Positions 6,169 through 59,944 of a stretch of DNA of 64,000 bases are shown one piece after another. The stretch covers positions 62,001-126,000 of the forward strand of contig CALXXN010000005.1 in assembly GCA_944392695.1 (NCBI GenBank). Direction: 5' to 3'. Position numbers and translations under genes: made by a program. Positions within the stretch are counted from its first letter, which is position 1, and every line of letters begins with the position of its first letter. The stretch comes from an uncultured Spirochaetales bacterium. GTDB taxonomy: Bacteria > Spirochaetota > Spirochaetia > Sphaerochaetales > Sphaerochaetaceae. The notes beneath the pieces were generated by a model that searched no databases, was not told the origin of the DNA, and was given only the letters and a program-made list of their open reading frames with translations.

Positions 6169-6215
6169 ATCTTCTTGAAAGCCCTTAAAGCACAGGAAAA
6201 GAAGAAGTTATCCAA

Positions 6216-6986: not shown

Positions 6987-7524
6987 ATCTCCTCCTAAGC
7001 AGTGAACCACCATCTCCCAGCTGGCGCTGGATGATGGAGCTTCTGGGCGCCTTCCCTTCCCAAGGCGTTTCACAGAATGTCCCGGACCTGAAACGAAGCC
7101 CCAGTGTCTGGCTTCCAATCTCCTCCGGAGTACCCGTGTATTACGCACGGGTGCTGGCCATAACATGTTTTCCTGCAAGATACAGTTTCTTCGCGGCCTG
7201 CAGCGTCCACATACTTGCCTGCCGGGAGTATAGCATTCTCCGCAGGTGCGGAAACACTCTTCAACCTCCTCTTGCGCTATGAATGTTTTTCCACAACCCA
7301 TAAGGCTGTGAAGACGGAAGCAATGCTGTCTGACGCTTATGCAGCCTGCGTGCAAGGTTTCAGGATCCCTGCAGAGGGCGCATCCGCGCTGTCTCTTGGA
7401 ATTTCATGGACATCACAGACAAAGCTTGCACTCTTGTTGTCGGGCAAGGCCCAATCAAATCCTGACAGACAACATGAGATTTGCAAGAAAGGCATCCGTC
7501 TCACTGTCATCATGCATCTCATTG
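6987..7524. other. Intergenic stretch without a convincing gene
   Basis: About 540 bases between the ferredoxin-type gene and the helicase gene, both transcribed leftward. Open frames on either strand have no recognisable family features or ribosome sites. An inverted repeat with 7-base arms (CGTTTCA at 7066-7072, TGAAACG at 7089-7095) is the only structure noticed. It could hold a decayed gene or an RNA, but nothing supports either. Confidence 0.4.
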
Positions 7525-35528: not shown

Positions 35529-35580
35529 AGCTAATCTCCTGGAAAAGGGGGGAAGGCCTCTGGCCCCTCCCCCATCGTTG

Positions 35581-36888: not shown

Positions 36889-36900
36889 ATCCTTGCCTCC

Positions 36901-38031
36901 TCACCTTTCGACATCGGACGATGGCCCGGCTGCCTTTATGTTCATCTTTCCAAGCTTCTTCTCGTACATGCCATGGAAGAGCCTGTCCCAGAGACGGCGG
37001 AACAGGACGCTCGTCGCCGAGAAGTAGATGATGACAGCGATGATCGTATCTGCGATTTCCGGTGGTATGCCAGCACCAGCACCAAGCGAGCCCTTGCCAG
37101 CCTTCAGGATGGCGAAGAAAAGGGCTGCGAAGAAGACACCAACCGGGTTGCAGTTGCCAAGCAGGGCGACGGCAATGCCATCGAAACCCTCGTTAGGCAT
37201 CTGGTTGCGGTAGATCATGTTCGAATAGCCACAGTAATAAGTGACACCTGCGATGCCGGAGAGGGCGCCTGCGATCGTCATTGAGATGATGATGTTCCGG
37301 CTCACCTTGATACCAGCATACTCAGCGCAGAAGCGGTTGGCACCAACAGCCTTGAGCTGATAGCCGAGCGTGGTCTTGTTGAGTATGAAGGCGATCACGA
37401 AGACCATGGCTATGGCGATTATGATGCCCCAGTTGATGTAACTGCGTGGGAAGAACTGCGACAGGAGCGGAGTCCTGAGGCTCTGTGCCGCAGGGACCGA
37501 GGCGGAACGCGAAGCGACACTTGGGTCGACCATGAAAGCGGGGATGGTCTCATAGATGATCCAAAGGGCCGTCCAGTTCAACATGATGCAGCTGACGACC
37601 TCATGGACATTGAACTTCGCCTTGAGGAAACCAGAGATGAAACCCCACAGGCCTCCAGCGATGGCGCCACTGACAACAATGATCACCAGGTAAAGCGGAC
37701 GTGGGATCCCCTGGCCGTAATAAGCCCACAAGGAAGCGACACAGCCACCGACAAGCATCTGGCCACTGCCTCCGATGTTGATCAAGCCTGCCTTGTAGCC
37801 GAAGGCCACCGAAAGACCGATCAGTATCAACTGGGTGGCAACCGCGATCGTGTTTCCAATACGCCTCGGATCCGAGACAGAGCCATGGATTATCAAGCGC
37901 ATGGCTTCCATCGGGTTCCGTCCGAGGACAAGCAACAGTATGCATCCGGCAAGGATGCCAGCGACAACTGCTGTCAATGACACGAGCAGCGACCCGGCCT
38001 TGTGCTCCTTGAGAAGTCTCTCCTTGGCCAT
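36901..38031 (-). CDS. Nucleoside/simple-sugar ABC transporter permease (YufP-like)
   Basis: A 376-residue permease, BPD_transp_2 type, with features such as LSVAFGYKAGLINIGGSGQMLVGG and LKAVGANRFCAEYAGIKVSR, both standard in nucleoside permeases of BMP systems. About eight to ten transmembrane segments are expected. Its start overlaps the final base of the ATPase gene stop, giving a coupled order ATPase-permease-permease. It forms the transmembrane pore together with the protein encoded at 35581-36888. Confidence 0.93.
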   Translation of the reverse strand: MAKERLLKEHKAGSLLVSLTAVVAGILAGCILLLVLGRNPMEAMRLIIHGSVSDPRRIGNTIAVATQLILIGLSVAFGYKAGLINIGGSGQMLVGGCVASLWAYYGQGIPRPLYLVIIVVSGAIAGGLWGFISGFLKAKFNVHEVVSCIMLNWTALWIIYETIPAFMVDPSVASRSASVPAAQSLRTPLLSQFFPRSYINWGIIIAIAMVFVIAFILNKTTLGYQLKAVGANRFCAEYAGIKVSRNIIISMTIAGALSGIAGVTYYCGYSNMIYRNQMPNEGFDGIAVALLGNCNPVGVFFAALFFAILKAGKGSLGAGAGIPPEIADTIIAVIIYFSATSVLFRRLWDRLFHGMYEKKLGKMNIKAAGPSSDVER

Positions 38032-39551
38032 CAGCCCACCTCCTTGCCGCTCTTGATGCCAGCCATCATGAGGCCGACGGCATACTCATCAGTATCCTCG
38101 GTCTTGACGATGTCTATCAGGCGGCCTGCGTTGATGACCGCGATGCGGTCTGAAAGGTTGAAGATCTCATCCAGCTCGAAGCTGACCAGAAGGACGGCGT
38201 TTCCCTCATCACGGTGCTTGACCAGCTGGGCGTGTATGAACTCGATGGCACCCACATCAAGCCCCCTGGTAGGCTGTACGGCGATCAGCAGCTTCGGCTG
38301 GGCCGTGATCTCACGGCCGATGATGGCCTTCTGCTGGTTGCCTCCAGAGAGCTTGCCTGCAAGGGAGTTCACCCCCTCGCCTGAGCGCACATCGTATTTC
38401 TCGATGATCGCCTGCGAATACTCCTTGATCTGAGGCTTGTCCAGGAGTCCGTGGTGGCTGAAAGGCCTCTTCTCGAAATCCTTGATGATGAAGTTGTCAT
38501 AAAGCGGGAAGGAAAGCACCAGCCCCCGTTTCTGACGGTCCTCGGGGATGTGGCCAAGCCCAAGGTCGTTCCGCTCCTTGATCGACAGCTTCGTGATGTC
38601 CCTGCCAAGCAGGCTGACCGAGCCCGACTCTATAGGTCGGAGGCCTGTGATGGCCTCGACAAGCTCGCTTTGTCCATTGCCATCAACACCAGCGATGCCG
38701 ACTATCTCACCAGCATGGACGCTGAGGGAGAAGTCCTTGACACCCAGGACCTTCTTGTTGTTCAGGACATTCAGGTCCTTGACCTCAAGCACGGCCTCTC
38801 CTGGCTTGGCAGGTGCTTTCTGGACCTTGAAGTTGACCTGGCGGCCGACCATCATCGCTGCCATCTCGGCAGTGGATGTCGATGCGACATCGACGACGCC
38901 AATCAAGCGGCCACGCCTGATGACGGTGCAACGCTGGGCGACAGCCTTGATCTCATCAAGCTTGTGGGTGATGATTATGATCGACTTGCCTTCCTTGGCC
39001 AGGGCACGCATGATGTCCATCATCTCATCAATCTCCTGAGGCGTCAGGACGGCGGTCGGCTCGTCGAATATCAGGATGTCGGCATCACGGTAGAGCATTT
39101 TGAGGATCTCAACACGCTGCTGCATGCCGACGCTTATGTTCTCGATAACACTATCCGGGTCTATGTTGAGCCCATAACGTTCACTGAGTTCCTTGATCTT
39201 GCGCCGGCCCTGCCGGGTATCGAGGACGAAGCCACCCTCCTTTCCAAGTATGATGTTCTCAGTGACAGTGTAGTTGTGGATCAGCTGGAAGTGCTGGTGG
39301 ACCATTCCAATGCCAAGGTCGTTGGCATCGTTCGGGGAATTGATCTTCACTTCCTTGCCACGTACCTTGATCGTGCCACGGTCAGCATGGTAGAGGCCGA
39401 AGAGTATGCTCATCAGCGTGCTCTTACCTGCCCCGTTCTCTCCGAGGATCGCGTGGATCTCCCCCTCCTCCACCTGCAAGGTGATGTCATCGTTCGCGAC
39501 GATGCCGGGGAACTCCTTGCGTATGTTCAGCATTTCTATAACGTAAGACAT
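38031..39551 (-). CDS. Nucleoside/simple-sugar ABC transporter ATPase (YufO-like, double domain)
   Basis: A 506-residue protein with two fused ABC ATPase domains. The first has Walker A GENGAGKST near residue 40, signature ISVGMQQRVEILK and Walker B ILIFDEPTAVL; the second has a degenerate Walker A (GVDGNGQSE), as is normal in this family, LSGGNQQKAIIGRE and a degenerate Walker B (LLIAVQPTRGLD). This matches ribose- and nucleoside-type importers that use one double ATPase. It follows the bmpA-like gene after a stem-loop. Confidence 0.95.
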   Translation of the reverse strand: MSYVIEMLNIRKEFPGIVANDDITLQVEEGEIHAILGENGAGKSTLMSILFGLYHADRGTIKVRGKEVKINSPNDANDLGIGMVHQHFQLIHNYTVTENIILGKEGGFVLDTRQGRRKIKELSERYGLNIDPDSVIENISVGMQQRVEILKMLYRDADILIFDEPTAVLTPQEIDEMMDIMRALAKEGKSIIIITHKLDEIKAVAQRCTVIRRGRLIGVVDVASTSTAEMAAMMVGRQVNFKVQKAPAKPGEAVLEVKDLNVLNNKKVLGVKDFSLSVHAGEIVGIAGVDGNGQSELVEAITGLRPIESGSVSLLGRDITKLSIKERNDLGLGHIPEDRQKRGLVLSFPLYDNFIIKDFEKRPFSHHGLLDKPQIKEYSQAIIEKYDVRSGEGVNSLAGKLSGGNQQKAIIGREITAQPKLLIAVQPTRGLDVGAIEFIHAQLVKHRDEGNAVLLVSFELDEIFNLSDRIAVINAGRLIDIVKTEDTDEYAVGLMMAGIKSGKEVG

Positions 39552-39596
39552 CAGACCTCCTCCAGCCTGCTTTCTCGTTCCTGTGTGGATAGGAGA

Positions 39597-39633
39597 AGAA
39601 GGCCGCGCTCAATGATGCGGGGCGCGGCCTTCT
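39597..39633 (-). terminator. Intra-operon stem-loop after the bmpA-like gene
   Basis: A perfect 12-bp stem (AGAAGGCCGCGC 39597-39608 with GCGCGGCCTTCT 39622-39633) and a 13-base loop, just 23 bases after the binding-protein stop. It probably stabilises or partly ends the binding-protein message. Confidence 0.65.
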
Positions 39634-39656
39634 CTCAATCAATCAGACTATCCCGT

Positions 39657-40763
39657 TCAGGGAATCAGCCCCTCTGCGTTGTCCTGGACAGAGATCTCAC
39701 CATTGATGATCATCTGCTCGACCTGGGCGACGATTTCCATGGTCGCATCAGAGAGGTTCGGGTTCTCAGTTGGGATTCCGAGGTCCTCTGTGTCAGCACC
39801 GAGGAGCATGTTCGTCCCACCAGGGAACGTGCCGTTGTAAGCAGCGTAGACGAGGTCGTAAGCGGCCTTGTCGATATACTTCATGGCGCTGGTCAGGATG
39901 CAGCTCTCACCATTGCCCATGTCACCGACAGAGTACTGGTCGACGTCAACACCAACTGCCCAGACATCCTGTCCGGCGAGGCGGCGGCTCTTGGCTTCGT
40001 TGATGACGCCAACACCGGTACCACCAGCAGCGGCGAAGATGACATCGACACCACTGTCGTACATGGCTGTGGCGAGCTGTCCACCAAGTGCGAGGTCAGC
40101 GAAGGAACCAGAATAGACGAAATTGTTGGGATCCATCTCGATGGCCGTGCCGTAGTTGGCATTCGCATAAGCGACACCCTGCTGGAAGCCCCAGTTGAAC
40201 TTCTGGACAGCTGGGATCTCGATACCGCCGACAAAGCCGACAGAACCCTCAACAATATCAACTGCTGTGGCGACACCAGCGAGGAAGCCTGACTCCTGCT
40301 CCTTCCAGCTGACGGAGACAGTGTTGGGGCCGCAGTTCTCACCGAGGTTGCTGTCGAAGATGACCAGCATCAGGTCATCACAATCACCACTGGCCTGGAC
40401 TTCCTTGATGGCATCCTCGAAGAGGTAGCCCGGGCAGGCGATGAAGCGGTAGCCCTGGTCGTAGAGGTCGTAGATGGCGGTTGTGTAGTCACCAGTCGTC
40501 GTGCCATTCGGGCGGAGGTAGGTGGCTGTGAGGCCAAGCTCCTGGGCGGCACGGTTGACACCTTCCCAGGTGCCCTGGTTGAAGGACCTGTCATCGATTG
40601 TGCCAGAGTCTGTGACCATTCCGACCATGAGGCCATCACCAGTTGTGGCGACACCAGATGTGGCAGTGGTTCCAGCAGCGGCGGATGTCTCAGAAGCACC
40701 ATTGGCGAAGACAGATGTCATCGCAATCAGGGCAATGAGAAGCAATGCTAGGGTTTTCTTCAT
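39657..40763 (-). CDS. bmpA: BMP-family nucleoside-binding protein
   Basis: A 368-residue substrate-binding protein of the basic membrane protein/PnrA family. The leader (KKTLALLLIALIAMTSVFANG) is a signal peptide of the form seen in the other binding proteins here. Family features are VGMVTDSGTIDDRSFNQGTW after the leader, YRFIACPGYLF, SVGFVGGIEIPAVQKF and FAAAGGTGVGVINEAK. PnrA-type proteins bind purine nucleosides, and the purine-nucleoside phosphorylase gene in the same operon supports this. The start at 40763 has AAGGAGA 7 bases upstream; a strong promoter lies just ahead. Confidence 0.93.
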   Translation of the reverse strand: MKKTLALLLIALIAMTSVFANGASETSAAAGTTATSGVATTGDGLMVGMVTDSGTIDDRSFNQGTWEGVNRAAQELGLTATYLRPNGTTTGDYTTAIYDLYDQGYRFIACPGYLFEDAIKEVQASGDCDDLMLVIFDSNLGENCGPNTVSVSWKEQESGFLAGVATAVDIVEGSVGFVGGIEIPAVQKFNWGFQQGVAYANANYGTAIEMDPNNFVYSGSFADLALGGQLATAMYDSGVDVIFAAAGGTGVGVINEAKSRRLAGQDVWAVGVDVDQYSVGDMGNGESCILTSAMKYIDKAAYDLVYAAYNGTFPGGTNMLLGADTEDLGIPTENPNLSDATMEIVAQVEQMIINGEISVQDNAEGLIP

Positions 40764-40797
40764 GGAGATTCTCCTTTGTTCTCGTTCGATAAGCCCC

Positions 40798-40826
40798 ATT
40801 GTAAAGGCAAGTGCCTATGCTGTCAA
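40798..40826 (-). promoter_or_regulatory. Strong promoter of the nucleoside uptake operon
   Basis: TTGACA (40821-40826) and TACAAT (40798-40803) with a 17-base spacer, 35 bases before the bmpA start codon. Near-consensus housekeeping promoter. No riboswitch-like leader is visible in the short untranslated region. Confidence 0.75.
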
Positions 40827-40940: not shown

Positions 40941-42038
40941 TTACTGGGCCATCTCAGCCTCAAGGAGGGCGAGGATGAAGGGCCCCACCCCCTTGAAATC
41001 ATCACGTTTCTGGGGTTCCAGGAAGTAGTATTTCAATGAGCCATCGCGGTAGGGATTACCGCCCAATCCAGCAACAGAGCAGATGCCGTCAAGGTGGTAG
41101 ATGCCGTTTTCATCGCAGGTCAGGTAGACCCGCTTGATACCATCAATGGCCTTGCGTCCAACGTCCTTCCACCGAGGCTCGAGTATGCCAAGGCTGCTAC
41201 CCTTGAAATACATGTAGGCGAACATCGATGTGCCACTGGTCTCAAGGTAGTTGCCAACCGCGTCCGGATGGTCTGGCACCTGGTACCACATGCCACTCTC
41301 CATCTGGTAGGCGGCAATGGCAGGAGCCAGCTCCCGGATCATGTCCTCGAGGTCCTTGCGTCCCGGGTGGGATGCAGGCACCTGGTCGAGCACATCAAGC
41401 ACTGCCATGCAGAACCAGCCAATCGAACGGGACCAGAAGTGAGGCGAAAGCCCTGTCTCGATATCACTCCACCTCTGCCCCCTGGACTCATCGTACGCAT
41501 GATAGAGCAAGCCTGTCTTCTTATCACGGAGGATTGAATAAGTCGTCTTCAACTGGTTCACCACATCATCAATCGCGGCATCATCATCGTGTCGGCGGGC
41601 ATATTCGGCATTGAAGGGGCCTTGCATGTAAAGCCCATCCAACCAGATCTGCCAAGGGTAGATCTCCTTGTGCCAATAGACCCCGCATTTGCACCTGGGC
41701 TGGTGGACCAGCTGGCTGTGGAGCCTGTCGGCAGCCAGGTTGAACCTCTCCTCCCCGCTCTTGTCAGCAAGGGGGAAGAGGGCGCGCCCCGCATTGACCT
41801 GGTCAAGGTTGTACTCACCTTCCCTGTAAGTGTCGATCGTACCATCCGCTGCGATCAGCCGGTCGTACATCGAATAAACCCATGGATAGATGGAATCATC
41901 CTTATGATAACCTGCGCTGCGCAAGGCGGCATAAAGGACGAGGCCATGTTCGTAGTGCCAGAGCATCATACCTGGCTGGTAATAGCTCTCGACACTTTTG
42001 GCGATCGCCAATGACAGGGGAAGTGGGTTCTTCTTCAT
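40941..42038 (-). CDS. GH105 unsaturated rhamnogalacturonyl hydrolase (YteR/RhiN-like)
   Basis: A 365-residue alpha/alpha-barrel enzyme of glycoside hydrolase family 105. It releases 4-deoxy-unsaturated galacturonate (or glucuronate) from the ends of lyase products, typically of rhamnogalacturonan I. Asp79 (YNLDQVNAG) and Asp134 (WLDGLYMQGPF) are spaced exactly as Asp88 and Asp143 of Bacillus YteR. SRSIGWFCMAVLDVLD is another hallmark. No signal peptide, so it is cytosolic. Last gene of a leftward operon with two permeases and a binding protein, which likely import the unsaturated oligosaccharide. A GAGG site lies 12 bases before the ATG. Confidence 0.92.
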   Translation of the reverse strand: MKKNPLPLSLAIAKSVESYYQPGMMLWHYEHGLVLYAALRSAGYHKDDSIYPWVYSMYDRLIAADGTIDTYREGEYNLDQVNAGRALFPLADKSGEERFNLAADRLHSQLVHQPRCKCGVYWHKEIYPWQIWLDGLYMQGPFNAEYARRHDDDAAIDDVVNQLKTTYSILRDKKTGLLYHAYDESRGQRWSDIETGLSPHFWSRSIGWFCMAVLDVLDQVPASHPGRKDLEDMIRELAPAIAAYQMESGMWYQVPDHPDAVGNYLETSGTSMFAYMYFKGSSLGILEPRWKDVGRKAIDGIKRVYLTCDENGIYHLDGICSVAGLGGNPYRDGSLKYYFLEPQKRDDFKGVGPFILALLEAEMAQ

Positions 42039-42123: not shown

Positions 42124-43692
42124 TCAGCGGACAAGGCCGTTCTCCCTGGCGTATTCGATGCCCTGCTCGTTCCAGGCAGCGCCACCAATGGCGTTGAACT
42201 GGTCAAGGAAGGCCTGCCAATTCTCAGGAGTGAGTTCCCTCTGGCCGGAGAGGAACTCTGCAAGACCCTGCTCATAGAAGCGCTGGACGTCGGCATTCGG
42301 GGTCGGCATCTGGCCACTTCCGATGGCTGCGGTCCAATGCTTTGACTGCATCTCGCGCAGCGTGGTGAGTGCTGACATCGTCTTGCCGCTGGTAGCCGTC
42401 GTATAGGTCGGATAGCGGGAAGCGAGCTCAGTGTCGCTGTTGTAGAAGACCATGTTCCTCAGCTGGGTGTAGACCTGGCCGTCAGGACCGGAGAATGACA
42501 TGTCACCAAGGTCGCCAGTGACAGGGACTCCGTTCTCATCGAGGACGTAGTTGACGCCTTCGACGCCCCAACCGCAGAGGAAGTAACCTTCATCAGAGCT
42601 CATCCATTCCAGGAGTTCGCAGATCTTCTCAGCCTTGCCTGCGTCGACAGCGTCCTGGCTGATCGCATAAATCCTGTAGTTCTGGTCGTAGGCACCAACA
42701 GAAGCATCTCCGTAAGGTCCTACTGGAGGATCGATGACAATCCACTCGCCATCAGGGAAGTTCGCATCGAATGGTGCGTAGTTCGCTTCTGCGGCATAGG
42801 CGGCGTTCTGCTCCTTCATGATACCGAAACGGCCCTGCTTCCATGCGGCACGGAAGTCATCCTTCTTGTAGGTCAGCCAGTTCGGGTCCATGACACCCTC
42901 GGCAGCCATGTTGCGGATGAAGCCCATGGCTTCGTAGAACTCCGGCTTGTAGACATTGAGGCCGAGGTCCTCTTCTTCGAAGCACCAGAGGCCGTCAACA
43001 CCAAAGGCACCAAGGATTGGGAAGAGGCGCGCGCCGGGATAGCCCTTCAGCGTGGCATCGGACTCGATGTAGGCACCGTAGCCCCATGTGTCATTACGGC
43101 CATTGCCGTCAGGGTCGTTGAATGTGAAGGCCCTCATGACATCCATCAGCTCATCAAGGGTCGTGGGGACTTCGAGGCCGAGGTTGTCCAGCCAGTCCTT
43201 GCGGATCAGGAGGCCTTCGTTCATGGCGACGGAGCCAGGAGAAGCGAAGCCATAGCTGTGACCGTCGATCGTCGTCATGGCGATGGAATCAGCATCATAC
43301 TGCTGTGCCGTCCTGTTTGGCATCAAGGCATAGTAATCATCGACAGGAGCGACCAGGCCCTGGTCGACAAGACGTGTGAGGACAGGGCGTGAGACCATGA
43401 AGAGGTCTGGAAGGCTGTTGCCAGCAGCGGCAGCCTGGATCCTGACGTCCTGGTCGGACTCATTGGAAGGCAGGGTGCTCAGCTGGAGGTCGATGTTGTG
43501 TTCCTCGAGCAGGATGTCGTAACCAACCCAGTCATCTGGGATTGGACCGGCCTCTGTTATGGCGGCGCCGTACCAAAGAGTGATGGTGACAGGACCATCA
43601 GATGCGGCTGTCGTTGTCTCAGAGCCACCATTGGCGAAGACCATCGTCATCGCGACAAGGAGAGTGAGGAGTGTTGCTAGGATTCTTTTCAT
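42124..43692 (-). CDS. Extracellular oligosaccharide-binding protein (LipO/YtcQ-like)
   Basis: A 522-residue solute-binding protein, the larger type that partners LplB/LplC-class permeases. It begins with a signal peptide (KRILATLLTLLVAMTMVFANG) without a lipobox Cys. Family features: LPDLFMVSRPVLTRLVDQGL near residue 90, a calcium-like DPDGNGRNDTWGYGAY loop near 190, and C-terminal EWMSSDEGYFLCGWGVEGV. The start at 43692 has GGAGGT 5 bases before it. It is the third gene of the operon, after both permeases, with the GH105 gene next; this suggests rhamnogalacturonan-derived oligosaccharides as ligand (inference). Confidence 0.92.
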   Translation of the reverse strand: MKRILATLLTLLVAMTMVFANGGSETTTAASDGPVTITLWYGAAITEAGPIPDDWVGYDILLEEHNIDLQLSTLPSNESDQDVRIQAAAAGNSLPDLFMVSRPVLTRLVDQGLVAPVDDYYALMPNRTAQQYDADSIAMTTIDGHSYGFASPGSVAMNEGLLIRKDWLDNLGLEVPTTLDELMDVMRAFTFNDPDGNGRNDTWGYGAYIESDATLKGYPGARLFPILGAFGVDGLWCFEEEDLGLNVYKPEFYEAMGFIRNMAAEGVMDPNWLTYKKDDFRAAWKQGRFGIMKEQNAAYAAEANYAPFDANFPDGEWIVIDPPVGPYGDASVGAYDQNYRIYAISQDAVDAGKAEKICELLEWMSSDEGYFLCGWGVEGVNYVLDENGVPVTGDLGDMSFSGPDGQVYTQLRNMVFYNSDTELASRYPTYTTATSGKTMSALTTLREMQSKHWTAAIGSGQMPTPNADVQRFYEQGLAEFLSGQRELTPENWQAFLDQFNAIGGAAWNEQGIEYARENGLVR

Positions 43693-43721
43693 ATTACCTC
43701 CAAATTGTTTTTCCTTTTTCA

Positions 43722-44669
43722 TCAACCCTTGACGGAACCAGCCAACGTACCCTTCGTGAAGTACTTCTGTATGAAGGGATAGGCTATGACCATCGGGATT
43801 GCGCTCATGAATACCGATGCGGCCTTGATGGCCTCGATCGGAGCATTGCCAAAGGCACTGACCTCGACATACTCGTTCATGCCAGCAGCCATCAGGATGT
43901 TCCTCAACAGGATGGGCAGCGGGTTGAGGTTGCTGTCCTGGATATAGAGCATGGCGTTGAAGAAGTTGTTCCAGAAGGACACGCCGTAGTACAGGCCGAT
44001 TGTCATGATGATCGCCTTTGACAGTGGCATGATGATCCTTATCAGGATCTGGACCTCGCTGCAGCCATCAATGCGCGCACTCTCCTTCAGCTCACCAGGG
44101 ATGCCATCGAAGAACTGGCGCATGATGATGACGTTGTAGGTCGAGATCGCTCCTGGGAGGAAGACCGCTGCCAGATGATTCATCAATCCGATGTTCTGGA
44201 CCAACAGGTAGGCCGGGATCATGCCGACATCGAAGATGTAGGGGATCAGGACAAGGGTCGTCAGGATCTTGCGTCCTGGCAGGGTCTTGACTGACATGAC
44301 ATAGGCCAGGGGTATGGTCAGGATCAAGGCGGAAATGACACCGCCGACCAGGATCTTCAAGCTGTTCGAAAAGGCCATGAGGAAGCCATTGTTGCCCAAG
44401 AGGGCCTTGTAGGCATCAGGAGACCAATCCCACACCGGGAGGAACATGCCTTCGAGATAGCTTCCAATGTAGGTGTTCGGCCTGAACGAGAGCGTGACTG
44501 TGGACCAGATAGGCACCGCGATGACGATCAGGATCAGGACCATGAAGATATCGACTGTGACCTGGAAGGCCCTGTCAGCCCTTGTCGGACGCACTGCATT
44601 GTTGTGCATCTTTGGCTTGAGGTCGGTATGTACCTTTTTCTTCTTTTTTGTTGTAGCTGCCGCTTCCAT
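43722..44669 (-). CDS. Oligosaccharide ABC transporter permease (LplC/YtcP-like)
   Basis: A 315-residue inner-membrane permease of the LplC branch of CUT1 importers, with a Lys-rich cytosolic N-terminus (TTKKKKKVHTDLK), about six hydrophobic segments and the EAA-like loop ESARIDGCSEVQILIRIIMP. It ends KGTLAGSVKG, typical of this group. AAGGGGG precedes the ATG, and the gene lies 10 bases after the LplB-type permease gene. It forms the pore together with that protein. Confidence 0.93.
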   Translation of the reverse strand: MEAAATTKKKKKVHTDLKPKMHNNAVRPTRADRAFQVTVDIFMVLILIVIAVPIWSTVTLSFRPNTYIGSYLEGMFLPVWDWSPDAYKALLGNNGFLMAFSNSLKILVGGVISALILTIPLAYVMSVKTLPGRKILTTLVLIPYIFDVGMIPAYLLVQNIGLMNHLAAVFLPGAISTYNVIIMRQFFDGIPGELKESARIDGCSEVQILIRIIMPLSKAIIMTIGLYYGVSFWNNFFNAMLYIQDSNLNPLPILLRNILMAAGMNEYVEVSAFGNAPIEAIKAASVFMSAIPMVIAYPFIQKYFTKGTLAGSVKG

Positions 44670-44679: not shown

Positions 44680-45705
44680 TTAGAACAGTGACGATCCTTC
44701 GCTTACGCGTTGGACAAGCTTGTTGGACACAAGGACCAGGATCATTCCAATCGCACCCTTGAAAAGACCAACCGCTGTGGCGAGCGAGAACTCGAACTGC
44801 AGGAGGCCCTGCCTGTAGACCCAGGTGTCGATGATGTCTGCGACCGAGTAGACCTGCGGAGAGTACAACATGTACATCTGATTGAAACCAGCATCGAGGA
44901 TCGTGCCCAGCTTCAGAAGGAGGACTGTGACGATGACAGGCTTGATTGAAGGAAGCGTGATGTAACGCACACGCTGCCAGCTGTTGGCTCCTTCGACCAT
45001 GGCCGCCTCGAAGAGCGAGACATCGATGCCCATCAAGGCTGCGATGAAGATGATTGCCGACCAGCCCATCTCCTTCCATGCGTCAGACAGCAGGACAACC
45101 CAGGGGAAGGCCTTGACTGATGAGAGGAAGTCCACAGGCGTACCCCCGAAGAGCTTGATGATATCGTTGATGATACCACTCGAAGGAGACAGGAGGGCGA
45201 AAAGGACACCGTACATGATGACCCATGAAAGGAAGTGTGGCAGATATGCCAAGGTCTGGACGACCTTGCGCAACACCCGGTGGGTGCACTCGTAAATCGC
45301 GATGGCCAGGATGATGGACAGTGGCAGGCTGATCACGATCTTGCCAATCGAGTAGAAGACGGTGTTCCTCAAGAGTTCCCAGAAATAGAAGCTGTTGAAG
45401 AAATCTATGAAATTCTGGAAGCCGACCCACTGGGAGCCGAGGACACCATCACGGGCCCTGAAATTCTTGAACGCGATCTGCGCGTTGAAAATGGGCACGT
45501 ACTTGAAGATGAAGTAGAAGACGATCGGGATGAGGAGAAGAAGATAGACATCTTTGTGCCGGAGGATCTCACGGCCCAGGGATGGCTTGATCATGAGCAG
45601 CTCTTCCCCACTCGCATTCTTCACCACCTTCACACGGGAAGGACTCACGTTGTGCCTGCGTGAGAACTCCGCGATCTCAGGCGACTTGGAAACAGTTTTA
45701 CTCAT
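44680..45705 (-). CDS. Oligosaccharide ABC transporter permease (LplB/YteP-like)
   Basis: A 341-residue permease of the LplB class. Notable features are LLLIPIVFYFIFKYVPIFNAQIAF in the first membrane segment, AFKNFRARDGVLGSQWVGFQNF, and the coupling loop EAAMVEGANSWQRVRYITLP. It is the first gene of the operon. The upstream region of about 115 bases, shared with the end of the large regulator gene, holds TTTCC/GGAAA repeats that may be operator sites. No ATPase gene is present. Confidence 0.93.
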   Translation of the reverse strand: MSKTVSKSPEIAEFSRRHNVSPSRVKVVKNASGEELLMIKPSLGREILRHKDVYLLLLIPIVFYFIFKYVPIFNAQIAFKNFRARDGVLGSQWVGFQNFIDFFNSFYFWELLRNTVFYSIGKIVISLPLSIILAIAIYECTHRVLRKVVQTLAYLPHFLSWVIMYGVLFALLSPSSGIINDIIKLFGGTPVDFLSSVKAFPWVVLLSDAWKEMGWSAIIFIAALMGIDVSLFEAAMVEGANSWQRVRYITLPSIKPVIVTVLLLKLGTILDAGFNQMYMLYSPQVYSVADIIDTWVYRQGLLQFEFSLATAVGLFKGAIGMILVLVSNKLVQRVSEGSSLF

Positions 45706-45764
45706 TCACCACCTCGTTGTGTTTTGAGCAAAGTATGGGGCTGCTTTCCAATCTTATGCTTACA

Positions 45765-45781
45765 GGAAATTGGAATTTTCC
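45765..45781. promoter_or_regulatory. GGAAA-N7-TTTCC inverted repeat upstream of the LplB-type operon
   Basis: An inverted repeat with 5-bp arms, flanked by further TTTCC copies near 45744 and 45784, lies about 60 bases before the permease start. It is a candidate binding region for the adjacent AraC-fused regulator. The arms are short, so chance cannot be excluded. Confidence 0.3.
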
Positions 45782-45821
45782 GACTTTCCGTGGTATTTGC
45801 AGGACACTTGAACCGTATTCA

Positions 45822-48800
45822 TCACATCCTGAGCTTTCCAGGCGCTACGCCCATGATCCGCTTGAAGACCCTGCAGAAGTAAGCCTGGTCCTGGAACCCG
45901 GACTCGTGTGCGACCTCGTTGACCGAACAGCCCGACCCCCTGAGGAGTGAACAGGCGATCTGGACACGGTAGCGGTTCAGATAGTCCCAGGGGGAGATAC
46001 CAAGCTCACGTTTGAATATGCGTGTCATGTAATCTTCTGAGATGTTGACACTGTCCGCGACCTGCCAACGGATCACCCTGCCCCGCGCCTTCCTGTTTAT
46101 ATAAAGGCAGACCTTCTTCACAAGCGCACCTGTGAGCGGAGCCAGGACCTGGCCTCCTCCGAAGATGCCGACCAGCCGGCTGAAGAACTCGTCGCTCCGG
46201 CAGATGCAGGTGTTGACCAGGAGTATGCCTGGCCAATCGGCTATCCTGTCGACGATGTCACTGGTGATCTCATCACGCACCAGCACGACCGGCACCCTGC
46301 TGCCGGCCTTGAGCGCCCTGATGCCCTCGACCATCTCCGCATCTCCTTCACGCAGGATCACCAAGGCAGGAGCTGGTTCGATGGCGGCAAAGAGCCCACT
46401 TGGTGAATCAAAGGTCTCTATACGTCCAAAAGATGACAACCTACCAAGACCATCTGGCAGGCCACCTAGCACCAGGATCCTGGCACTTGAACGCCCATAG
46501 AGCGCATTATGGGCGGAAAGCGCACTCCAGAAATCAGTCCCCAGGCTGTCAAGACCTAGGCAGATGAATGCCAGGTCCTTGGTTGATTCGTGGTTCCTCA
46601 AGAGGTTCAGGACGACATTACCGACAGCCCCCCTGTGTGGTTCAGAAGCATCGTAGGCCAGCTGGGTGAGGCCTTCCGGCAGGTTGAACGAGGATGCCAG
46701 GTCACTGTCATAAGCCATGACAAGCTGGGGGCAACCTGCAAGACAGGCAGGGACAGGAACGTCCTGTGAATGCCTGATGAACAGTGTCGGACCATAGGAC
46801 GTGGTCGGGGCCATCCCTCCAGACAACGTCGGCCAGGGCAGCATGACCTGGATGCTGTGCTCCTTGAAGTGGAATGTGCCTGAAAGGAGCATGACTATGC
46901 GTTCCGCCAGCTGCAGGGAGGGGTTCTTGCTGAGCATGGCCGGATGCCAGGTGTCAAGACTGAGACCCAACCCCAGCCCGTTTGGATAGAAACAAGCGGA
47001 AAGACGTGGCCCGTCCCCATCCTCGCGTGCCAGCTGCACCAGTATCGCCAAGGCCTGGGAAAGCCGCCAGGGATCCGTCAGGACCACAGGCAGGCCATCG
47101 GGAATGGCTGCATCGTCAAGCCCCTGTTCCTTGGCGAAGGCCCTGAGGAATGAAGATGGGTCCGTGATACCGTATGCGACCTCAAGCTCGCCACGCTCGG
47201 AGAGGATCAGGTCCAGCAGGTGCTCCGCTTTGGACACATTGTTGTATATATCGCCTTTGACCTCGGATGGCAGCCCGGAAAGAGCCTGGCGCATCGCGCT
47301 CAAAGGCTCACGCAGGTCTTCAGAGACATTGGCGTAGAACTCCTTGGCCTCACGTTCCGCCTCCTCCGCCTTGTCTTTCGCACTGTTGGCCTCCTCGAGC
47401 AGGGTCATGCCTTTCAAGGCCGATGATACGGAAGCCATGACATCTTCTATCGTGGCCTCCTTGTGCATCGGTGTGACCTCGATGACAAGATAGCCTACAG
47501 CCTCCCTGTCACGGATCACTGGTTCGACGACGAAGGCTCCATGTGAGACGAAACCCCTGTAGCGTTCCGGCAGCATGTAAGGTGCGCTGAAATCCTCCTT
47601 GCCTACTTCACCAAGCCCAGGATCGTAACCTGCGACCAGCGTGCGCCCCTCATCCCCGTTGAAGAGTACGAGATAGGCCTGGCGGAAGCCAAGTCCCGGC
47701 AAGTGCTCCTTCATGACAGCCCCAAGATAATCCATGCCCTTGGTCGACAACAGGGCCATCTTGAAGCTGTTCATGCCTTGGAGCTCACTGAGGAAGCGGT
47801 ATTCAGCCTCCCCGCTCGCAAGCACGCTCGAGCGGAGGATCACACGGTCCAGGTTCTTCAGGCAGAAATCACGCATCCCATCACCAAGTGGTAGGAGGAG
47901 GGAGAACCAGTGCGCAATCTCGACCAGGTCTTCGCTCTCCCCCTCCTGCTGTATGAACGAGCGGCAGAGTACGGCGAACCGGGACAGGAAGGTCTCCTGT
48001 TCCCTAGGCCCTGGATCGGGGTTGCGCAGCGCATAGCCGACAAGGTAATCGAGATCCACCTCCCTAAGGCGTCCACCTGAATATTCGACCGCCCAGCGGG
48101 TGAAGCTTGATTCGTCCTTGATCACAGCCCTGGCGGCCGCCTCCCCTCCAAAGGAGTCATGACAGCCACAGGAACGGCGCACGACAAGCGAGGCATCGAG
48201 CACCGTGTCGTCCGCAACAGCCCTGCCTTCCATCAAGTCCTTCAACCGGGACATCGCACAGGCCATCATGGCACCTGCAGGCATACGTACCGTCGTAGGG
48301 GGTGTGGCCAGGAGCTTGTTGGTCTCGCTATCGTTGAAACCACAGACGGCAAGGGAACCAGGTATGTTGACACCCAGCTCCTCCAGGCGCCTCACTGCTG
48401 CGTACATCATCATATCAGAAGCACACACGAGGGCATCGAAATCAAGGGATGGGACAAGCCCCCTTGCCGACATTATCTCATCCAAGGCCTCCCTGCCCCG
48501 TCCCCAGGGGTGTGGGGATGAGACCAGGTCAGGGTCGAAGGGGATGCCACAGGAGGCAAGTGCATCCAGGTAGGCTTGGTAGCGGCGTTGGGACGAAGCA
48601 TGGTATTCAGGTCCACGCAACATGCAGATCCTTTTCTTACCATGCACCTTGACCAAGTGGGTGACAAGGGAGAAGAAGCCTTGATAGGCATCGAAATCCA
48701 CAAGGGGGACATCGGGGCCTGTCTTCAGTCCGATCGTGACAATGGGCAGCCCATCGAAACGTCGCATGAAGGAGCACACATCCTCCGTACTCGCATCACC

Positions 48801-49028
48801 TGCCAATGTCGACGCCCATGCGACAAGACCATCAATGTTCTCAGGACAGATCAAGGAGTAAATCGAGTTGCGGAGATACTCATCAGCTCCCTTGAAATCC
48901 AGCCTTCCGCCAGGGAAGGCGATCAATGCGTCCTTGGTCAAGTCGACACAGGACAGCGCACGGTGCCACAGGCGGACGCTCATCCCCTCGTGGATCGACG
49001 CAAGCATGAAAGCGGTTCTTCTACCCAT
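45822..49028 (-). CDS. Giant fused regulator: LacI-like sensor, vestigial histidine kinase, receiver-like domain, AraC HTH
   Basis: About 1070 residues with no membrane segment or signal peptide. Numbering from an upstream Met at 49097: residues 24-315 form a LacI/XylR-like effector-binding domain without an N-terminal HTH (SDMMMYAAVRRLEELGVNIP, VCGFNDSE); 430-560 look like a GAF or similar sensor module; 565-590 a short coiled coil; 590-760 align with a histidine kinase, but the phosphoacceptor His is Glu593 in NVSEDLREPLS, and the N-box (DPWRLSQALAILVQLA) lacks its Asn residues. Residues 870-975 resemble a receiver whose phosphoacceptor Asp is lost (PALVILREGD). Residues 985-1091 form an AraC double HTH ending AYFCRVFKRIMGVAPGKLRM. 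The start is uncertain; Met24 (49028) fits the domain edge. Likely controls the flanking transporter or uxa operon. Confidence 0.85.
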   Translation of the reverse strand: MGRRTAFMLASIHEGMSVRLWHRALSCVDLTKDALIAFPGGRLDFKGADEYLRNSIYSLICPENIDGLVAWASTLAGDASTEDVCSFMRRFDGLPIVTIGLKTGPDVPLVDFDAYQGFFSLVTHLVKVHGKKRICMLRGPEYHASSQRRYQAYLDALASCGIPFDPDLVSSPHPWGRGREALDEIMSARGLVPSLDFDALVCASDMMMYAAVRRLEELGVNIPGSLAVCGFNDSETNKLLATPPTTVRMPAGAMMACAMSRLKDLMEGRAVADDTVLDASLVVRRSCGCHDSFGGEAAARAVIKDESSFTRWAVEYSGGRLREVDLDYLVGYALRNPDPGPREQETFLSRFAVLCRSFIQQEGESEDLVEIAHWFSLLLPLGDGMRDFCLKNLDRVILRSSVLASGEAEYRFLSELQGMNSFKMALLSTKGMDYLGAVMKEHLPGLGFRQAYLVLFNGDEGRTLVAGYDPGLGEVGKEDFSAPYMLPERYRGFVSHGAFVVEPVIRDREAVGYLVIEVTPMHKEATIEDVMASVSSALKGMTLLEEANSAKDKAEEAEREAKEFYANVSEDLREPLSAMRQALSGLPSEVKGDIYNNVSKAEHLLDLILSERGELEVAYGITDPSSFLRAFAKEQGLDDAAIPDGLPVVLTDPWRLSQALAILVQLAREDGDGPRLSACFYPNGLGLGLSLDTWHPAMLSKNPSLQLAERIVMLLSGTFHFKEHSIQVMLPWPTLSGGMAPTTSYGPTLFIRHSQDVPVPACLAGCPQLVMAYDSDLASSFNLPEGLTQLAYDASEPHRGAVGNVVLNLLRNHESTKDLAFICLGLDSLGTDFWSALSAHNALYGRSSARILVLGGLPDGLGRLSSFGRIETFDSPSGLFAAIEPAPALVILREGDAEMVEGIRALKAGSRVPVVLVRDEITSDIVDRIADWPGILLVNTCICRSDEFFSRLVGIFGGGQVLAPLTGALVKKVCLYINRKARGRVIRWQVADSVNISEDYMTRIFKRELGISPWDYLNRYRVQIACSLLRGSGCSVNEVAHESGFQDQAYFCRVFKRIMGVAPGKLRM

Positions 49029-49134
49029 GTATCCATGATAAGCCAGCCACCAGGAGCTTGCAAACAAATTCAGGACTGTTTTGTACAAACCAGCCATTGG
49101 ACGATTCAGGACAAGCCCGAACGGCCATTTTTCG

Positions 49135-49164
49135 TTGACAAGTCATGAATGGCCGGTTTAGAGT
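49135..49164 (+). promoter_or_regulatory. Candidate uxaBAC promoter
   Basis: A perfect TTGACA (49135-49140) with TAGAGT (49159-49164) 18 bases on. The predicted start of transcription would fall in or just after the KdgR-like box, leaving a leader of about 150 bases before uxaB. Confidence 0.45.
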
Positions 49165-49180
49165 GGAATCATGTTTCATT
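49164..49180. promoter_or_regulatory. Imperfect KdgR/IclR-type operator upstream of uxaB
   Basis: The right half ATGTTTCATT (49171-49180) is identical over 10 bases to the right half of the palindrome between kdgK and kdgA. The left half (TGGAATC) matches the consensus arm TGAAACA at 4 of 7 positions. It overlaps the edge of the proposed -10 box, as expected for a repressor. The IclR-family gene at the end of this operon is the likely binder. Confidence 0.5.
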
Positions 49181-53718: not shown

Positions 53719-54495
53719 GTGAAGGAAGCTGAAGAAAAAAGCAGGATGAGTGGTGTCGTACGCACCATCAGCATACTTGAGGTGCTTGCAAAGAGCGGGA
53801 ACATCAACCTTGAGAACCTCTCCAAGGCGACCGACCTGCCGAAGGCCACCCTCCTGCGCTTCCTCAGCACACTGCAGTCCCTGGGTTATGTGCACAGGGA
53901 CGATGCGGACCAGTACTCACTGACACTGAAGCTCTTCTCACTTGGTTCAAGGGCCCTGGCCCACAATGACCTGATCAGCAAGGCCAGGCCCTTCGCCAAG
54001 CACCTCTGTCAAAGTCTCGGAGAGACCGTCCACATGGGCATACTTGAAGGTTACAACGCCGTCTATGTGCTGAAGGAGGAATCCAGCTACACACTGCGCA
54101 TGTATTCCCGTGTGGGCAAGGTCATCCCACTTTACTGCACGGCCATAGGCAAGATCTTCCTCTCCGAGATGGACGAGCAGGTCCTCTCTGGTTATCTTGG
54201 TGCGACCGCATTGAAACCCTTCACCAGCAGGACGCTCTGCTCGCCAGAGGCGCTAAGGGAGCAATTGGAACTGACCCGGCGCCGGGGCTGGGCCATCGAC
54301 GACCAGGAACATGAGGACAATGTCATGTGCATCGCAAGCCCGATAAGGGATTACACAGGTACTGTCGTCGCCGCGATGTCAGTCTCCTGGCCTGTCTTCC
54401 GCTTCAACCAGGCAGACTTCGAGAAGATTGTCAGCGAAATCAAGGCCGTGACAGATGAGCTTTCAGCCATCATGGGCTACGAGGAAGCAGACTGA
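53719..54495 (+). CDS. IclR-family transcriptional regulator (KdgR-like)
   Basis: A 258-residue regulator with an N-terminal winged helix (SILEVLAKSGNINLENLSKA, PKATLLRFLSTLQSLGYV) and a C-terminal IclR effector domain (GETVHMGILEGYNAVYVLKE, CTAIGKIFLSEM). It follows uxaC by 4 bases in the same operon. KdgR proteins of this family bind 2-keto-3-deoxygluconate and regulate pectin and uronate genes; the box at 61119-61133 and its weaker copy at uxaB resemble the KdgR site. The start is taken as GTG at 53719 (GAGGG 8 bases before); the ATG at 53746 is an alternative. Confidence 0.93.
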   Translation: MKEAEEKSRMSGVVRTISILEVLAKSGNINLENLSKATDLPKATLLRFLSTLQSLGYVHRDDADQYSLTLKLFSLGSRALAHNDLISKARPFAKHLCQSLGETVHMGILEGYNAVYVLKEESSYTLRMYSRVGKVIPLYCTAIGKIFLSEMDEQVLSGYLGATALKPFTSRTLCSPEALREQLELTRRRGWAIDDQEHEDNVMCIASPIRDYTGTVVAAMSVSWPVFRFNQADFEKIVSEIKAVTDELSAIMGYEEAD

Positions 54496-57874: not shown

Positions 57875-59944
57875 ATGCCAGCAGCAATCCATGCATTCTC
57901 GTTCCTCACAGCGGCCATCGCGTTCCTCTTCGCCCTCTACTTGTACTTATGGGTGAAGAAGAGGAAGGTCGCCAATCCTGAGATCATCCGCGTATCAAAG
58001 CTGATCAAGGAGGGTGCCGAGACATTCATGGCACGAGAGTACAAGCTGCTTGCCATATTCGCAGGAGTGGTGGCCATCATCGTGCTCATACTCCTGCCCC
58101 ATCCAATCTGGACCGGCAGTCCCGTTGACAACATCATGATGGCTCTGGCCTACATCGCAGGAACCATACTCTCTGCCATCGCAGGCAAGATAGGCATCAT
58201 GGTCGCCACACTCTCGAATGGACGTACTGCGGAAGCAGCTGCGCAAAGCCTTGATGGCGCCTTCCTCACCGGCTTCAGGGGTGGAGCCGTCATGGGCCTC
58301 CTTGTAGTCGGTTGCTCACTGCTTGGAGTATCAGCAGTCCTCCTGATTGCAGGAGATGCGACAATCCTGCTTGGCTTCTCCTTTGGTGCGAGCTCGCTCG
58401 CCCTCTTCGCCAAGGCAGGAGGAGGGATCTTCACCAAGACCGCTGATGTCGCCGCAGACCTGACAGGCAAGGTGGAACTCGGCCTTGCAGAGGACGATCC
58501 ACGCAACCCTGCCGTCATAGCGGACAACGTGGGGGACAACGTTGGTGATGTCGCAGGCATGGGTGCGGACCTCTTCGATTCAAATGTCGCAGCCATGACA
58601 AGCGCCCTGGTCATCGCAGCCTCCCTCACAGGCACAGGCTGGGCTGTCACGGAGATGGTCTTCGCATACGCCATACTAGGCCTGCTGGCCTCGCTCATAG
58701 GCATAGCCACGGCCCGTGTCGGCAAGGATGGCAACCCGACAAGGGCATTGAACTCATCGACCTATGTCACGACCGCCCTCTTCCTGGTCATGACAGCCCT
58801 GGCGACAGCCTTCATCGATGGCTTCTCCTGGAGGATCTGGGGAAGCTCTGCCACAGGCCTCCTGGTTGGTATCATCATTGGTATCACAACAGACTACTTC
58901 ACTGATGACCGGCGTCCGATAGTCAAACGCGTGGCCAAGGCATCAGCCTCAGGCCCTGCCTTCACCATACTCTCAGGAACCTCCTACGGCTTCATGTCCG
59001 CCCTGCCTGCCATGGTCGGAATCGCGGTATCAGCACTGGTGTCGTACAAGCTATGCGAACCAATGGGTGACGGCTTCGCCCTTTATGGAATCGCGATGTC
59101 GGCCGTGGGCATGCTCTCCATTGTCGGCATGATCATCTCAAACGATGCCTATGGCCCTGTCGTCGACAATGCAAGGGGGCTTGCTGAGATGGGAGGCCTT
59201 GGCGAGGATGCGATCCGGACAGCGGACGAGCTCGACAGCGCAGGCAACACGGTCAAGGCCGTCACAAAGGGTTTCTCAATAGGTGCGGCAGGACTTACAG
59301 TCATCTCACTTCTTGGCGCCTTCATGGCGGAAGTCAACGAAGCACTAGCACAGACGGGACGCCCCCTCATCACAGGTTTCGACATCATGGAACCGACAGT
59401 CTTCTTCGGCATACTCATAGGAGCAGGCATCCCCGCCCTTTTCTCCGCTATGCTGATACTCGGAGTCGACCGCAATGCCGAGCGCATGGTCGCTGAAGTC
59501 CATCGCCAGTTCAACACAATCGCAGGCCTGAAGGAAGGCCTTGCCACCCCAGAGTATGCAAAATGCATCGACATAGCCACGCGCGGGGCTTTGAAGGAAC
59601 TCGTACCCGCAGGTCTGACAGCAATCATCGCCACCCTCCTTGTCGGCTTCATCGGAGGTCCTGAGGCTGTCGGAGGCTTCCTGCTGGGCAACATCACAAG
59701 CGGCCTCCTGCTTGCACTTTTCATGTCCAACTCCGGCGGACTGTGGGACAACTCCAAGAAGTACGTTGAAAGCGGTCACGAAGGTGGCAAGGGATCGGCA
59801 GCCCACAAGGCCGCCGTCATAGGAGACACTGTAGGCGATCCTTACAAGGACACGGCAGGACCTTCAATCAACACCCAGATCACTGTCGTCTCATTGACAG
59901 CCTCACTCTTCAGCGCCATCTTCGCAGCCTTCTCGATCTTCTAA
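57875..59944 (+). CDS. hppA: Membrane pyrophosphatase, K+-independent type by signature
   Basis: A 689-residue integral membrane enzyme with about 16 helices that couples pyrophosphate hydrolysis to ion pumping. The active-site motif DNVGDNVGDVAGMGADLFDS lies near residue 215, and the C-terminal DTVGDPYKDTAGPSINTQI near 650. The residue pair that decides potassium dependence in this family (Ala/Gly versus Lys/Thr, positions 460/463 in Carboxydothermus) reads Lys461 and Thr464 here (GNTVKAVTKGF), so it should be a K+-independent, most likely H+-pumping enzyme. GGAGG precedes the ATG. It lets the cell conserve energy from biosynthetic PPi. Confidence 0.95.
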   Translation: MPAAIHAFSFLTAAIAFLFALYLYLWVKKRKVANPEIIRVSKLIKEGAETFMAREYKLLAIFAGVVAIIVLILLPHPIWTGSPVDNIMMALAYIAGTILSAIAGKIGIMVATLSNGRTAEAAAQSLDGAFLTGFRGGAVMGLLVVGCSLLGVSAVLLIAGDATILLGFSFGASSLALFAKAGGGIFTKTADVAADLTGKVELGLAEDDPRNPAVIADNVGDNVGDVAGMGADLFDSNVAAMTSALVIAASLTGTGWAVTEMVFAYAILGLLASLIGIATARVGKDGNPTRALNSSTYVTTALFLVMTALATAFIDGFSWRIWGSSATGLLVGIIIGITTDYFTDDRRPIVKRVAKASASGPAFTILSGTSYGFMSALPAMVGIAVSALVSYKLCEPMGDGFALYGIAMSAVGMLSIVGMIISNDAYGPVVDNARGLAEMGGLGEDAIRTADELDSAGNTVKAVTKGFSIGAAGLTVISLLGAFMAEVNEALAQTGRPLITGFDIMEPTVFFGILIGAGIPALFSAMLILGVDRNAERMVAEVHRQFNTIAGLKEGLATPEYAKCIDIATRGALKELVPAGLTAIIATLLVGFIGGPEAVGGFLLGNITSGLLLALFMSNSGGLWDNSKKYVESGHEGGKGSAAHKAAVIGDTVGDPYKDTAGPSINTQITVVSLTASLFSAIFAAFSIF

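Follow-up and report, generated by a model that had tools for sequence, protein, structure and literature searches.

The window analyzed here is a 64,000-nucleotide stretch of DNA from an uncultured Spirochaetales bacterium of the Sphaerochaetaceae (contig CALXXN010000005.1, positions 62,001 to 126,000), and this analysis concerns a large regulatory gene within it that occupies positions 45822-49097 of the minus strand as an open reading frame of 1091 codons. The genome to which the window belongs comprises 2.31 Mb in 39 contigs, and its genus group includes Bullifex porci. This genome contains a single full-length copy of the regulator, with 23 other matches covering LacI or AraC parts only. 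Loci with relatives are given below as L numbers and genomes as G numbers; L034 (G001) and L061, the Bullifex porci locus, gave identical match values. Translation may in fact begin at Met24 (codon starting at 49028), since the reading frames of L025, L045 and L117 contain a stop immediately ahead of the residue aligned with residues 23-24 of the query and since the full-length structural model is poor ahead of residue 22.

The protein begins with a LacI-type, periplasmic-binding-protein-like sensor (residues 26-312; 48162-49022, this and all following parts of the gene being on the minus strand), which is defined by conservation and by a Pfam match to Peripla_BP_3 (PF13377; residues 152-310, E = 3.3e-19), has no LacI helix-turn-helix (HTH) and ends in a conserved R-SCGC motif. 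The SCGC motif is kept in at least 90% of 79 AraC-type rows. There follow a helical part seen only in the model (residues 313-452; 47742-48161), a GAF-like domain recognized by the order of strands and helices in the model (residues 453-545; 47463-47741), a dead DHp (dimerization and histidine phosphotransfer) domain consisting of a long signaling helix and a hairpin (residues 546-640; 47178-47462), a dead catalytic/ATPase (CA) domain identified by profile, VIA comparison and residues (641-762; 46812-47177), a first and tentative receiver-like domain with four beta-alpha units in the model (REC1, residues 763-867; 46497-46811) and a second, dead receiver domain with five such units (REC2, residues 868-985; 46143-46496). 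The C-terminus is an AraC double-HTH DNA-binding domain (residues 986-1091; 45825-46142), supported by conservation and by a Pfam match to HTH_18 (PF12833; residues 1014-1090, E = 5.5e-23), and is more conserved than any other part of the regulator. A HisKA match to residues 585-625 stays under the Pfam cut-off (15.3 versus 26.9 bits, E = 0.021), and no match to HATPase_c, Response_reg or a LacI HTH is found in the regulator at E-values up to 1. The regulator is predicted to have no clear membrane segment. The customary limit for such a segment is a Kyte-Doolittle mean of about 1.6; the highest 19-residue mean, 1.63 at residues 975-993, is not counted as one because the model places it at the receiver end and in the linker to the AraC domain, and none of the six highest values falls between the LacI-type domain and the kinase. 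An earlier note on this DNA, made from the sequence alone, had described a soluble protein with an N-terminal LacI/XylR-type binding domain devoid of the LacI HTH and with an AraC double HTH at its C-terminus, a description borne out by the hydropathy profile and by Pfam. It had overlooked the helical part, the GAF-like domain and the possible REC1.

To describe the middle region we ran AlphaFold on family alignments, using 80 sequences for residues 312-1000 and 79 for the whole protein. The middle region was modeled with a predicted local distance difference test score (pLDDT) of 89.6 and the whole protein with a pLDDT of 90.1 and a predicted template modeling score (pTM) of 0.62, such that the placement of the domains is less certain than the domains themselves. 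The top PDB matches to the middle model in Foldseek are histidine kinases and phytochromes (E-values from 1.1e-9), including RetS and DivL. VIA comparison paired residues 579-758 with EnvZ (4cti_B; Z 16.3, root-mean-square deviation (rmsd) 5.3, 159 residues aligned), ZraS (Z 16.0, rmsd 4.5, 185 aligned) and DivL (Z 15.6, rmsd 4.4, 182 aligned), and the CA part alone with YycG (4zki_B; Z 15.8, 1.9 Å, 120 aligned). Among the matches listed, only that to ShkA (6qrj; Z 14.1, rmsd 18.2, 255 aligned) extends to the receivers, and this match may be carried by the CA domain alone. Profile-profile comparison additionally related the CA part to live CA domains (94.9%, E = 4.2e-8) and residues 868-985 to live receivers (84.6%, E = 6.9e-6), with crossed profile controls giving 0.1-0.2%. 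REC1 scored 1.3% against receivers, which is not significant, and 9.7% against REC2; the pseudo-receiver of RcsC is reported to have been recognized by structure only (PMC7010744). The check by structure prediction that the earlier note had proposed for this region yields a DHp and CA kinase fold together with one or, tentatively, two receiver-like folds.

These folds have lost the residues on which phosphotransfer depends. We scored eight sites over 104 aligned rows, namely the phosphoacceptor His, the N-box Asn, the G1 Asp, two acidic receiver residues (D/E), the acceptor Asp, the Thr/Ser and the Lys. In the query these places hold Glu, Leu, Leu, Gly, Gly, Arg, Arg and Thr, and none of the eight is kept. 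Glu593 (47319-47321) stands in place of the His within NVSEDLREPLS, the G2 glycines of the CA domain are gone as well, and Arg occupies the acceptor Asp position of REC2. The earlier reading of a kinase-like block with Glu for His and no N-box Asn, followed by a receiver-like block without its acceptor Asp, is therefore upheld, and the comparison with homologs that the note had suggested finds these losses to be common to the family, as 102 of the 104 rows keep zero to two sites. Intact homologs, which the note had named as a sign of a normal hybrid kinase and thus as refuting its reading, do exist, yet all eight sites are present only in L156 and L157, which belong to another family (f4). When these two are set aside, 54 of 102 rows keep no site, 38 keep one and 10 keep two, and the His place is filled by Glu (44 rows), Ser (24), Asn (12), Asp (9), Ala (3), His (3), a gap (3), Val (1) or Gly (1). 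Over all 104 rows His occurs in 5 and the acceptor Asp in 19. Both the combination of His with the N-box Asn and that of the REC2 acceptor Asp with the Lys and an acidic residue are found only in L156 and L157. The frame of the H-box is retained, with Phe587 in 86 of 89 rows, Leu595 in 87 and Pro598 in 86, and Leu599 is likewise strongly conserved; Asp675 of the CA domain is retained in 100 of 102 rows.

The regulator is widespread and is maintained. At E ≤ 1e-40, 106 of 139 family genomes contain a match, which is one near-full-length piece in 72 of them (by a count of the rows) and split or cut in the rest. Cultured members with a locus include Bullifex porci (L061) and Treponema saccharophilum DSM 2985 (L127). 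The same threshold gives matches in 59 of 392 genomes of the phylum, many of the distant ones being partial, and a plasmid search beyond the Spirochaetota returned one partial match, to the LacI part, in an EAL protein of Deinococcus. The dead domains evolve under purifying selection. Ratios of nonsynonymous to synonymous substitution (dN/dS), pooled over 8 close pairs and calculated per domain, are 0.093 for DHp, 0.137 for CA, 0.130 for REC1 and 0.115 for REC2, as compared with 0.076 for the LacI part and 0.029 for the AraC domain.

Relatives in several states of preservation indicate how this architecture may have arisen. The distant relatives L156 and L157 (genomes G455 and G441) carry the eight intact sites followed by an AraC domain, and Pfam identifies HisKA (3.9e-11), HATPase_c (9.6e-30) and Response_reg (6.7e-11) in L156; the live state is known only from these two proteins, which are close to each other. 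L211, which is truncated by the end of its contig, is intermediate in having Glu for His, a HATPase_c match at 2.7e-9 and a retained acceptor Asp, and L210 has lost the H-box part of its DHp domain. In L172 (765 aa) and L220 (761 aa), both of Sphaerochaeta group g16, the whole kinase is gone while the last receiver-like part and the AraC domain are kept. A tree of the sensor half, calculated with L158 left out, puts all 43 AraC-type rows on one side of a branch with a support of 99. Because the outputs of the remaining 15 rows are GGDEF, MCP or kinases that by eye retain His, a live kinase is likely to be the older state, and since two relatives within the AraC group are intact LacI-kinase-receiver-AraC hybrids, it is more likely that the kinase died in place. 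The earlier note had instead regarded the protein as a merge of the plans of XylR and of the hybrid two-component system (HTCS) proteins. This is probably not the case, as the sensor-half tree places the regulator among spirochaetal LacI-helical-GAF proteins with various outputs and the AraC group contains the intact hybrids.

On these trees the kinase appears to have been lost at least once. The tree that omits L158 requires two changes, and the approximately unbiased test does not reject a single loss on it (p-AU 0.34). When L158 is included a single dead clade is rejected (p-AU 2e-49, three changes), but this rejection is driven by L158, and repeated independent loss of the kinase, which we had considered, was dropped for this reason. 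L158 itself (3957-7703, plus strand) joins a sensor half of the dead clade to a C-terminal half that reads by eye as a live kinase-receiver-Hpt protein, and is most simply explained by an exchange through which a kinase was apparently regained. The LacI-helical-GAF sensor of spirochaetes is found with many outputs (L156-L172 and L209-L224, mostly read by eye), including HisKA, HisKA_3, PAS-kinases, PP2C, HD, Hpt, GGDEF, MCP and AraC.

The presumed target operon lies directly downstream on the same strand. Its first gene encodes an ABC permease (permA, 44680-45705, assigned by Pfam BPD_transp_1 and synteny) and is followed by genes identified by Pfam as a second ABC permease (permB, 43722-44669), the solute-binding protein of the importer (SBP_bac_1, 42124-43725) and a Glyco_hydro_88 family hydrolase of the GH88/GH105 type (40941-42038). 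Neighboring genes include those for tagaturonate reductase and glucuronate isomerase, both above cut-offs. This address is conserved. Among loci other than the window, with permA called at ≥ 50% identity, uxaB at ≥ 45% identity and limits of 2.5 kb, permA starts downstream of the regulator and on its strand in 43 of 63 loci, uxaB is divergent upstream in 33 of 56 and both are found in 27 of 48. Directly behind the live L156 and L157 come permA (54-55%), permB and the solute-binding protein gene, and directly behind the kinase-less L172 and L220 comes a solute-binding protein gene (55% identity).

A conserved element lies between the regulator and this operon. Expectation maximization (EM) at width 18 on 34 regulator-to-permA gaps gave attTTgtaattTTCagAc (reverse complement gTctGAAaattacAAaat) with a log-likelihood of 129.8 versus 57-58 in three shuffles, a contrast that is somewhat flattered because the shuffles preserved single-base content only and were given 8 restarts as against 25 in the real runs. 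In a seeded run roughly half of the 34 gaps were assigned the element (gamma 0.53), and several have none. From the EM sites we read the 16-bp pattern GTCKGAAWWKTMCAAW. The candidate operator of the window, located by EM and pattern search, is GTCGGAAAATTCCAAT (45769-45784, minus strand), which lies upstream of a plausible -10 sequence (CATACT, 45732-45737, by eye) and so in an activator-like place. Its own genome has one exact copy of the pattern, located between the regulator and permA, and one further copy with one mismatch. Among the 139 family genomes there are 49 exact copies in 43 genomes, versus 8 for the reversed-pattern control. Of these copies, 29 lie immediately 3' of the regulator and 7 immediately 5', all 36 on the regulator strand, and a further 7 are on the same contig within 10 kb of it. 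By genome, an exact copy is found in 41 of the 106 that have the regulator and in 2 of the 33 that do not. Genomes that yielded no gap (G020, G033, G076, G093, G122 and G123, among others) have the element at the same place. A scan of 129 loci covering 1.59 Mb yields 30 exact copies, of which 22 follow the regulator or precede permA; the reversed pattern does not occur in these loci. Furthermore, in L076, L078, L079 and L165, where the regulator lies elsewhere and which were not used in the derivation, a copy still precedes permA. L156 and L157 share GTCGGTAAAATCCTAT (13/16) right after the regulator, which is only a hint because 38 of 400 random 400-bp stretches also score at least 13/16. From these positions we infer that the AraC domain of the regulator binds GTCKGAAWWKTMCAAW.

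The gap on the other side of the regulator gene contains a different element. In the window it has no match to GTCKGAAWWKTMCAAW with up to two mismatches, and at the uxaB promoter a near-invariant 26-bp stretch forms a KdgR-type palindromic box (49155-49180, unstranded). The sequence from 49135 to 49180 contains a promoter-like TTGACA-N18-TAGAGT for uxaB that overlaps the palindrome AATGAAACATGATTCC. Within the genus the 26-bp stretch scores 21-26 of 26. Some other Sphaerochaetaceae reach 16-19, a range in the upper tail of shuffles (17 or more in 17 of 720), and Treponema gaps reach 13-16, which amounts to nothing there. Variants in some other Sphaerochaetaceae read GAAAC-N-GTTTC, which we take to be like the KdgR box. 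An initial reading of the stretch as an operator of the regulator was dropped in favor of a KdgR-type box. The protein that binds there is probably the product of a KdgR/IclR-like gene at 53719-54495, which scores 214 bits against NCBIfam KdgR (under the cut-off of 275), and not this regulator, given the KdgR-like variants, the overlap with the uxaB promoter and the finding of no homolog of this IclR gene within the flanks of Treponema loci. The uxa operon more likely answers to the KdgR-like regulator. Of the targets proposed earlier, the importer/GH105 operon is thus supported by its conserved element and the uxa operon is not, its gap having a KdgR-type box in place of the element. A second site for the regulator may nevertheless lie upstream of its own gene. 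Among the words that EM finds in the upstream gaps beside the KdgR-type box is a TTGTACAA-like one.

We consider it fairly probable that the regulator is a ligand-driven, phosphotransfer-free, cytoplasmic one-component activator of the importer/GH105 operon, which would have arisen by the dismantling of a hybrid two-component protein. The ligands of LacI-type domains are small molecules and often sugars. In the proposed mechanism, the LacI-type domain of what is presumably a dimer would bind an imported oligosaccharide that contains uronate and is most likely an unsaturated pectin di- or oligosaccharide. The ligand is probably a pectin fragment because the operon contains an importer and a GH88/GH105-type hydrolase and uronate genes are adjacent. 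The resulting change would pass through the GAF-like domain and signaling helix into the dead DHp/CA core, which would act by contact on the dead receiver such that the receiver stops restraining the AraC domain. The freed AraC domain would then bind GTCKGAAWWKTMCAAW before permA and turn on permA, permB and the genes for the solute-binding protein and GH105 hydrolase. Release of AraC through a dead core is proposed because in HTCS proteins of Bacteroides the receiver has been shown to restrain AraC and changes at their interface release AraC without phosphate (PMC11253607). That direct coupling has replaced phosphotransfer, as the earlier note had suggested, is very probable given that all eight sites are lost and that these losses are family-wide. 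A broader proposition, which we hold to be evenly balanced, is that a complete hybrid phosphorelay was converted where it stood, without losing its target operon, into a switch that carries the signal from ligand to DNA by purely mechanical means. Its core would then be selected for motion and not for chemistry, and the series of relatives with live, dead and deleted kinases beside homologous importer genes would show phosphotransfer to be an optional addition to an allosteric machine.

Several observations weigh against this interpretation. The GAF-like domain and REC1 are seen in the model only, and the pair L124/L125 is under laxer constraint, with per-pair dN/dS values reaching 0.42 (REC2). 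Additionally, L124, L125 and L129 have the phosphoacceptor His, their N-box Asn being gone. The pairing of the AraC domain with the element is drawn from position alone, and the nearness of the element to the regulator is partly built in because the pattern was derived from regulator-permA gaps. Exact copies are lacking in 65 of the 106 regulator-holding genomes, 6 of the 49 copies are elsewhere and, as noted above, two genomes carry a copy without having the regulator. Finally, EM on 85 upstream gaps also finds strong words (width 18, log-likelihood 272.6 versus 59-61 when shuffled). These words, the 7 copies just before the regulator gene and the frequent divergence of uxaB would fit a reading in which the same protein has another target or sign, acting as a repressor or mainly regulating itself or uxa. 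We regard this as unlikely, as 29 of the 49 copies are just 3' of the regulator, four loci have a copy before permA far from the regulator, the element in the window lies in an activator-like place and none with two or fewer mismatches occurs in the uxa gap.

Alternatively, the core could function as DivL does and sense whether a separate response regulator is phosphorylated, thereby joining two inputs, a sugar and a two-component pathway. DivL, with Tyr for His, is reported to work by such reading (PMC4211667), it is among the VIA matches, and the conserved H-box frame of Phe587, Leu595, Pro598 and Leu599 would suit this role. However, the regulator has its own fused receiver-like domain and no response regulator was found among the neighboring window genes scanned, a search that did not extend to the rest of the genome, so we consider such reading quite improbable. 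Less credible still is that phosphorylation continues to matter, with a separate kinase acting on Asp816 of REC1 or on another residue. The corresponding beta-3 position is Asp in 41 of 102 rows, the query included, but it is Asn, Glu or Arg in 46, REC1 is itself weakly supported, and the acceptor Asp, Lys and acidic residue of REC2 occur jointly only in L156 and L157. The loss of catalytic residues, and of the whole kinase in L172 and L220, might also be taken to mean that the gene is decaying and on its way out, which we find scarcely believable. Decay is contradicted by the selection on every domain (pooled dN/dS 0.03-0.14), and the presence of matches in 106 of 139 family genomes and the conserved address and element also speak against it.

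Pseudo-kinases, pseudo-receivers, XylR and HTCS proteins are already known, and the regulator shares features with each. Its architecture was not found in the literature searched, as judged by titles and the beginnings of abstracts. In E. coli XylR, LacI and AraC domains are joined directly in a soluble protein that works without phosphate. XylR (PDB 4fe7) thus resembles the regulator in its solubility, in having a LacI-type ligand domain without the LacI HTH and in its C-terminal AraC domain, but in the regulator about 670 residues (313-985; helical part, GAF-like domain, dead kinase and dead receiver) separate the two. HTCS proteins likewise combine a sensor and an AraC domain with a kinase fold and a receiver in a single chain, and they control genes for glycan use. 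In one of them, BT4236, Gln replaces His, and a mechanism independent of phosphorylation is suspected (PMC11253607). The regulator differs in its degenerate kinase and receiver, in having no clear membrane segment and a LacI-type sensor expected to be cytoplasmic rather than periplasmic, and in the family-wide loss of all eight checked sites, with Glu for His and Arg for Asp. DivL and other pseudo-histidine kinases also have a kinase fold that lacks the phosphoacceptor His and is retained for signaling (PMC4211667, PMC12632262), a signaling role being likewise predicted for the regulator. DivL is reported to keep its N, G1, F and G2 boxes (PMC4211667), whereas the regulator has lost N, G1 and G2 and is fused to a DNA-binding domain. 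ShkA has a similar order of DHp, CA, REC1 and REC2 with REC1 as a pseudo-receiver, but is a live kinase steered by c-di-GMP and has no DNA-binding domain in the architecture shown (PMC7010744). Spirochaetal LacI-SCGC proteins (L160-L164, L171, L212-L218, L223 and L224) have a homologous LacI-helical-GAF sensor half, but end in kinases with His, GGDEF or MCP outputs (by eye, with Pfam for L213 only) and have no AraC domain.

What is new is a whole family in which all of the chemistry is dead, which has a conserved candidate operator and whose live and kinase-less relatives lie beside homologous importer genes. A 2025 review describes pseudo-receiver switching as an open question, extends this to pseudo-histidine kinases and gives 0.9% as the share of HisKA domains without His (PMC12632262). 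Here a pseudo-kinase and a pseudo-receiver are fused to a recognizable sensor and a DNA-binding output with a nameable target, and the contribution of the core could be measured by domain swaps since live and kinase-less relatives adjoin homologous target genes. The family suggests a route by which a one-component regulator arises from a two-component one. It also provides gut ecology with a candidate switch for the uptake of pectin fragments in Sphaerochaetaceae and Treponema.

Two other parts of the window contain recognizable genes. Positions 34704-40799 encode a purine-nucleoside phosphorylase beside a BMP-type ABC importer (two permeases, an ATPase and a Bmp protein), and homologs of this region come after the pectin importer operon in several loci, for example L057, L058, L063, L072 and L121. 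Positions 57875-59944 contain a gene for an H+-translocating pyrophosphatase (Pfam H_PPase, 3.5e-221).

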